Source: Tabrizicola thermarum | GTDB lineage: Bacteria; Pseudomonadota; Alphaproteobacteria; Rhodobacterales; Rhodobacteraceae | NCBI RefSeq assembly: GCF_003574395.1 | Contig: NZ_KZ984538.1 | Span: 1 to 64,000 of the forward strand | DNA length: 64,000 bases | Direction: 5' to 3' | In this document: in pieces, positions 50,314 through 50,732 of the stretch | Layout: each line of letters begins with the position of its first letter | Numbering within the stretch: position 1 is the first letter of the stretch | Program-made: the position numbers and the translations under genes | The notes under the pieces: generated by a model | Seen by the model: only the letters and a program-made list of their open reading frames with translations | Database searches by the model: none | Told to the model about the DNA's origin: nothing

Positions 50314-50328
50314 GTTCTAGTACTGTTC
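50314..50328 (+). promoter_or_regulatory. LexA box (SOS operator)
   Basis: GTTC-TAGTACT-GTTC is a perfect GTTC-N7-GTTC direct repeat, the LexA recognition sequence of alphaproteobacteria including Rhodobacter. It ends two bases before the ATG of the DnaE2-like ORF and 88 bases upstream of the divergent ferredoxin start. Confidence 0.8.
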
Positions 50329-50330
50329 GC

Positions 50331-50732
50331 ATGACGCTGCTGCCTGCCCCTGCCCCGCGCGGCACCTCCTGGCCGCGCCCGCCCCGCGCCTTGCAGGCCG
50401 CCCGGCTGGGCGAGCCTCCGGCCGGCGCGCGGGTCACGGTGGCGGGGCTGGTGCTGGTGCGGCAGCGGCCGGGCACGGCGAAGGGGGTGATCTTCGTCAC
50501 GCTGGAGGATGAGACGGGGACGGCGAACGTCGTCGTCTGGGCCAATGTCTACGAACGCTTCCGCCGGGCAGTGATCGCGGGGCGGCTGCTGCGGGTGACG
50601 GGACGGCTTCAGCGCGAGGCGGGGGTGGTGCATGTGGTGGCCGAGCGGATCGAGGACCTGTCACCGCTTCTGGACCGGCTTCTGGATCCCGGCTTCCGGC
50701 ATGACGGGGCGCGGGCGGGAGACCAGCCGTAA
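50331..50732 (+). CDS. DnaE2 C-terminal OB-fold fragment (SOS cassette remnant or stand-alone OB protein)
   Basis: A 133-residue protein. From about residue 34 it matches the end of error-prone DNA polymerase DnaE2: [20 protein letters not shown], then [20 protein letters not shown] and [20 protein letters not shown]. The full enzyme has more than 1,000 residues; the PHP, palm, fingers and thumb parts are missing. The first 30 residues are Pro/Arg/Ala-rich and not recognised. With the LexA box directly upstream, the simplest reading is a large internal deletion of an imuA-imuB-dnaE2 cassette joining its promoter to its 3' end. The frame is intact. Confidence 0.75.

Follow-up and report, generated by a model that had tools for sequence, protein, structure and literature searches.

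The error-prone DNA polymerase DnaE2 occurs in a one-piece form, in which a single gene encodes both the catalytic body and the C-terminal OB-fold and ends in the tail HPR..Q...LFPSRDFH. The polymerase described here shares with that form the sequence of both halves, the catalytic motif, LexA-type boxes and the presence of ImuA and ImuB homologues in the genome, but it is encoded by two unlinked genes, has lost the tail and carries a new start with the motif WPRPP on its OB-fold. The genome studied here also differs from those with an imuA-imuB-dnaE2 operon in having no operon with imuA and imuB. Split imuA-imuB/dnaE2 cassettes, whose genes lie apart yet remain under LexA, are described in the accessible introduction of PMC3919608. 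Gene separation and LexA control (putative here) are common to those cassettes and the present case, whereas here the division runs through the polymerase gene itself, with the imuA and imuB homologues also apart in the same genome. Another C-family polymerase encoded in two pieces is the cyanobacterial DnaE, whose division by an intein is mentioned in the accessible text of the same paper. In contrast to that enzyme, 19 residues precede the OB homology here, the bodies end 6–64 residues after the motif HPxxLLR and there is no intein, so the pieces would have to act non-covalently. An intein-split polymerase was rejected as a candidate, with no intein family reported for either piece and no room for one at the junction.

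Several DnaE2 sequences without an OB domain have been reported (PMC3919608, accessible text). The split bodies described here would look alike, but a separate OB gene is not mentioned in that portion of the paper; the word 'Rhodobacter' is absent from its text. In the accessible text of a 2026 survey (PMC12926913), the PHP and HhH regions of DnaE2 are modelled as its contacts with ImuB, the C-family trees are trimmed to the PHP and polymerase domains, and the terms 'OB domain' and 'OB-fold' do not appear. The accessible part of PMC9426580 includes a plasmid-borne imuA-imuB-dnaE2 cassette of D. shibae and does not mention a split gene, and that of the Dinoroseobacter LexA paper (PMC6473078) names neither an OB nor a polymerase gene. 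No description of a split DnaE2 was found among the titles listed in searches of openly licensed literature or in the accessible text of these four papers. The split form may explain the DnaE2 sequences reported without an OB domain.

The OB-fold gene and its presumed promoter

The window, the whole 64,000-nucleotide stretch of DNA that was analysed, contains an open frame of 133 codons, and the LexA-type box GTTCTAGTACTGTTC ends two bases upstream of its ATG (Table 1), as the original prediction had stated.

Table 1. Features of the OB-fold locus, in window coordinates
Feature	Position	Strand	Basis
Divergent 2Fe-2S ferredoxin gene (conserved neighbour; motif-based name)	49902..50225	-	Motif conservation
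Presumed -35 element, TTGCCT	50296..50301	+	TTG in 89 of 120 loci listed, 18 bases upstream of the box
LexA-type box, GTTCTAGTACTGTTC	50314..50328	+	Exact pattern; kept across genus and family loci
Presumed -10 element inside the box, TAGTAC (mostly TATNTT in relatives)	50318..50323	+	Column counts, by inference; weak in the window
Gene of the detached DnaE2 OB-fold protein (133 codons)	50331..50732	+	Profile matches and dN/dS
WPRPP motif, residues 14–18, absent in one-piece DnaE2	50370..50384	+	Alignment columns
OB-fold region, homologue of the DnaE2 C-terminal domain, residues 20–118	50388..50684	+	NCBIfam PRK05672, 942–1040; predicted barrel
C-terminal RAGDQP, in place of the DnaE2 tail HPR..Q...LFPSRDFH	50712..50729	+	Common to most genus members
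DegP/HtrA-like gene (convergent neighbour; motif-based name)	50835..52289	-	Motif conservation

The best curated family of the encoded protein was the error-prone DNA polymerase DnaE2 (NCBIfam PRK05672; E value, 9.2e-34), with residues 20–118 aligned to positions 942–1040 of 1047, and the protein also matched PF01336 (Pfam; E value, 1.5e-14). Homology to the DnaE2 OB-fold had been proposed from about residue 34; the homology stands, but it begins at about residue 20. The structure predicted from 75 aligned sequences was a confident OB barrel (mean pLDDT, 89.4; pTM, 0.79). The best 50 rows of a Foldseek search with this model were OB-folds of AspRS, AsnRS, LysRS, RPA, Stn1 and similar proteins, with no DnaE chain among them. 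The SSB family PF00436 remained below threshold (14.5 bits; cut-off, 26), and a sequence search of solved structures with the OB profile gave no match at an E value of 0.01 or lower. A phage gene and a plasmid gene were also considered and rejected: there was no PHROG hit, and among the best 20 of 696 matched plasmid records, 16 were listed under 'error-prone DNA polymerase' and four were unannotated.

Both ends of the protein are distinct from those of one-piece DnaE2. W14 occurs in 96% of 28 detached OB-folds and is a gap in 18/18 one-piece sequences, and W14, P15, P17 and P18 are invariant or nearly so in alignment A2. The detached OB-folds keep 39 of the 48 conserved OB columns of one-piece DnaE2, and 13 tail columns that the 18 one-piece sequences conserve are empty in at least 93% of the 28 detached ones. 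The conserved C-terminal tail ending in SRDFH was lost from split-form OB-folds, a remnant being seen in genome G131 only. Most members of the genus end in RAGDQP, and RAGDQP or RAADQP is seen again in related genera; such a recurring C-terminus suggests a possible binding motif.

A genus-level search covered 61 genomes, 32 of them genus members, and recovered the stand-alone OB gene in 28 of the 32, with internal stops in none of the 28. The four members without a match were G004, which has one-piece DnaE2 only, G005 and G018, with none, and G025, in which the box and start are present before the contig end cuts the locus. The dN/dS of the OB gene had a median of 0.080 and a maximum of 0.178 (351 pairs from 27 loci; 102-codon core; L036, L037 and L038 left out). 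The gene is under strong purifying selection, and neither the relaxed selection nor the broken frames of a pseudogene were observed. This comparison among relatives had been suggested as a check, and its outcome favors a retained gene. At least 120 named loci were collected by a pattern scan, including those of Phaeobacter, Ruegeria, Roseovarius, Marivita, Salipiger, Rhodovulum, Gemmobacter, Rhodobacter and Seohaeicola. The original prediction had named an ancient conserved family with a common start as evidence against its own reading; this is largely what was found, the box-ATG-WPRPP start being common to many genera. One of the loci, L151, is titled as an Exiguobacterium profundum MAG and carries an alphaproteobacterial OB gene; the record looks mislabelled.

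The surroundings of the OB gene are also conserved. Of the 104 named loci listed with at least 700 bases upstream, 97 have a divergent 2Fe-2S ferredoxin motif no more than 1 kb away, as do 28/29 family loci. A DegP/HtrA motif lies up to 3 kb downstream in 36 of the 81 named loci listed.

The element before the OB gene is presumably a LexA box. Six exact boxes were observed in the window against 1.31 expected, a number reached in 0/100 shuffles. Genome-wide, 108 exact boxes were counted against 72 for the reversed control pattern, and many single boxes are thus due to chance. The box GTTCTAGTACTGTTC is not one of these, because an exact box stands just before the start in 27/27 same-genus copies with upstream sequence; an exact box was likewise found at 29/29 detached OB loci read across the family. 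These two counts are the unbiased ones, the search pattern for the at least 120 named loci having contained the box, which makes that set uninformative on box frequency. The name LexA box follows in part the division of LexA motifs into GTTC and GAAC classes (PMC6473078, accessible text).

Among the 120 named loci listed, 113 have their first in-frame ATG 1–3 bases after the box, and box positions 5–10 are mostly TATNTT. A generic promoter scan of the window ORF region found nothing. With the box laid over the -10 of a -35/-10 pair, the start would fall at or beside the ATG, and we infer from this layout that the OB message may be leaderless or near-leaderless. A second likely SOS gene of the window, at 12767–13255 on the minus strand, encodes an MmcB-like DNA repair protein (PF06319; E value, 4.3e-45); its ATG at 13228 comes 12 bases after an exact box at 13241–13255.

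The catalytic body and the rest of the putative mutasome

It had been proposed that imuA, imuB and most of dnaE2 were missing. This is true of the neighbourhood of the OB gene only, homologues of all three being present elsewhere in the genome. The gene of the DnaE2 body lies on another contig of the same genome (C7:34533–37373, minus strand) and has 946 codons from a GTG start of our choice. The alignment with full-length DnaE2 that had been recommended for finding the junction was made with the one-piece protein P0003 (from G004): the match of the body stops at its residue 979, and that of the window ORF starts at residue 970. Against PRK05672, the body covers positions 5–939, so that it tiles one model together with the window ORF, whose match begins at 942.

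Pfam analysis of the body identified PF07733, PF17657, PF14579 and PF02811, corresponding to NTPase, finger, HhH and PHP, with PHP just above the cut-off and no OB domain; the one-piece P0003 has the body domains and an OB domain. The PHP, NTPase, finger and HhH regions and the motif PDIDVDF are thus found in the body and are absent from the window ORF itself, while the C-terminal OB-fold of a DnaE2 is supplied by the window ORF. PDIDVDF is kept in all 30 split bodies examined. The short extension past HPxxLLR given above was found in 30/30 split bodies, and one-piece forms extend 144–171 residues past this motif (26 measurable of 27). Putative LexA-type boxes were found within 150 bases before 29 of the 30 split bodies, 20 of them exact and nine, as candidates, with one mismatch; no box was found within 150 bases before the body of G131.

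An ImuB homologue is encoded at C8:40291–41970 with a box just upstream; it contains PF00817 and owes its name to homology with the gene that precedes dnaE2 in G004. An ImuA homologue is encoded at C10:207173–207811, 16 bases downstream of a box, and scored 37.9 bits against NF033429, below the cut-off of 150. An ImuA match was obtained in 27/27 split genomes searched, the present one included, as well as in G101 and three body-only genomes. Homologues of ImuA and ImuB thus accompany the split polymerase here, and the putative SOS mutagenesis cassette is dispersed in this genome as four separate genes, each with a box. The proposed whole-genome search for an imuA-imuB-dnaE2 cassette therefore did return the homologues, but on separate contigs and with dnaE2 as a body without OB-fold. 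Such scattering is not universal, as the imuB homologues of G107 and G138 are still found about 1.5 kb or less from the body. In the one-piece genome G177 (L243), an imuA-like gene, imuB and dnaE2 are contiguous. That cassette has a box at 991, followed by a SRAP-family gene (L243 991–1724; PF02586; E value, 2.5e-18) ahead of the imuA-like gene.

Distribution and origin of the two halves

Co-occurrence of the halves was analyzed in 150 genomes of the family, one per genus. The first count gave 62 genomes with both halves, four with the body only, two with the OB only and 82 with neither (Fisher p = 1.4e-34, which is not a count of independent events because the split is largely inherited). After the exceptions had been checked, the numbers were 64, 3, 1 and 82, respectively, the reclassified genomes being G131, whose OB lies in a longer frame, and G111, with a body fragment at a contig start. 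The detached OB was thus present in 65/150 sampled genera. The 82 genomes with neither half comprised 70 classed as one-piece DnaE2, some of these calls coming from contig-end fragments (G139, G143 and G194), and 12 without DnaE2 at an E value of 1e-125 or lower, in which no ImuB match was found. Among genus genomes at least 90% complete (n = 25), 23 had both halves and two had neither.

The OB locus is cut or was not found in the assembly in all three body-only genomes: in G114 the contig stops 339 bases beyond the ferredoxin motif, and the assemblies of G094 and G198 gave no ferredoxin match at an E value of 1e-20 or lower. The single OB-only genome, G101 (seven contigs, 100% complete), has an intact OB and ImuA and ImuB homologues but no body, and is a real exception to co-occurrence. 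In G101 (L268, L193), an ATG within the box can serve as the start of the OB frame.

In one genome, G085, the two halves are on the largest contig, and a contig of 126,304 bases carries a one-piece DnaE2. G004, of the same genus, and G033, of the same family, each carry two copies of DnaE2 in one-piece form and lack a split body. At the ferredoxin locus of G004, the box and ATG remain, the OB core is lost and a short C-terminal fragment is left (E value, 0.011); that of G033 has a decayed C-terminal OB fragment (E value, 9.5e-10) and no exact box. G005 gave no OB, body or ImuB match, and its ferredoxin locus is without OB or box. At the level of sequence, the split halves were shown to be complementary, co-retained and preceded by putative LexA-type boxes, with loss of the OB in these three genomes without a split body. 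Distances among OB-folds followed those among bodies when ferredoxin, the sole control gene, was held constant (partial r = 0.78 in 26 genomes; 0/2000 permutations as high; G131, G138, G178 and G200 left out).

In a tree of 54 of the 57 DnaE2 bodies (G108, G116 and G037, without the trimming motif, were dropped), the 30 split bodies formed one clade with an SH-aLRT support of 98. In the OB tree, from which a motif miss removed G138, its OB having been read separately, 28/29 detached OB-folds grouped together and that of G131 was placed beside the one-piece G035; a single clade was present in 7% of 200 bootstrap trees. With a reduced set (G178, G200 and five one-piece rows dropped), three changes were needed and one clade appeared in 0% of bootstrap trees, yet a single clade was not rejected by the AU test (p = 0.40). 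The OB tree by itself is no proof of a single origin, the sequence being too short.

In the body tree, too, G131 branches next to one-piece rows. There is no ferredoxin gene beside its OB gene, whose product ends in HPRDQSKLLF, resembling the one-piece tail HPREQAKKLF(PSRDFH). G131 looks like a stage that may have followed soon after the fission. The G131 OB protein (L237 2778–3895, minus strand) has a long low-complexity insert between the WPRPP start and the OB-fold, and a worn DnaE2 tail.

In a class-wide sample of 289 genomes, 147 of which were matched, the only clear stand-alone OB genes among the matches listed were those of the present genome and G205, both belonging to the same family. 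Several short frames at contig ends among these listed matches were left out of the stand-alone tally. Of three other matches read, those of G439 and G235 resemble one-piece genes that have been broken, and a motif filter gave no output for G434 (L279).

Proposed function of the two halves

We consider it probable that one old gene fission gave rise to a two-gene DnaE2, and that the window ORF is the detached C-terminal OB-fold acting in trans with a damage-induced body. To judge from the sequences, dnaE2 was divided in an ancestor inside this family, the cut falling in the linker behind the helix-hairpin-helix region. The body (PHP, NTPase, finger and HhH) and the OB-fold became two unlinked genes, which in the present genome stand, like the imuB and imuA homologues, each alone behind a LexA-type box. 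DNA damage would inactivate LexA and induce the four genes together, and, with the LexA box also serving as the -10 element, the OB transcript would begin at its ATG or right beside it. The OB protein would then bind the single-stranded template, dock on the body or ImuB in trans, or both, and thereby restore the grip on DNA that one-piece DnaE2 has in cis; the reassembled mutasome with ImuB and ImuA would perform mutagenic lesion bypass. Physical association of OB and body is implied by this scheme, and the detached OB would add another element in trans beside the HhH end of the body. The chances seem about even that the result is a two-subunit C-family polymerase whose dissociable OB, with its own SOS promoter and a leaderless message, allows dose and timing to be set apart, with bypass occurring only when both parts are present.

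The part played by the OB-fold in DnaE-type polymerases is hard to test because its removal truncates the enzyme. Evolution has cut this polymerase at a domain border, given the OB a damage-type promoter of its own and kept both parts across a large marine and freshwater clade. With this natural cut, the part of the OB in lesion bypass could be tested by removing one small gene.

A stand-alone OB-fold protein retained behind a LexA box had been offered as the second choice in the original prediction; it is supported but incomplete, as the protein is most likely the missing piece of a split DnaE2. A version of that idea, in which the OB derives from DnaE2 fission and now serves as an independent SOS-induced single-strand-binding protein apart from the body, appears unlikely. 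It would fit a separate gene with its own box, the gain of WPRPP and loss of the DnaE2 tail, the OB kept by G101 without a body, and a fold near the general nucleic-acid OB-folds of AspRS and RPA, with no DnaE in the best 50 rows. However, the body accompanies the OB in 64/65 OB-bearing genomes, the OB has decayed or gone in G004, G033 and G005, all without a split body, and the match to PF00436 was sub-threshold.

We give still less credit to a regulatory role, in which a free OB would act as a brake on mutagenesis by competing for template or ImuB. A separate gene does permit separate dose and timing, and the tail of one-piece DnaE2 is missing, but a body without an OB of its own and the mostly kept one-piece OB signature (39/48 columns) speak against it.

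The favored reading of the original prediction, one in-frame deletion that left a relic of the SOS mutagenesis cassette, can be dismissed for the window: the locus does look like a promoter joined to a 3' end, but the catalytic body is intact on another contig, and the ORF is conserved in 28/32 genus members and across genera with 28/28 genus matches stop-free and a median dN/dS of 0.08. A true relic of this kind was found in G004, where the box and ATG stand without an OB core.
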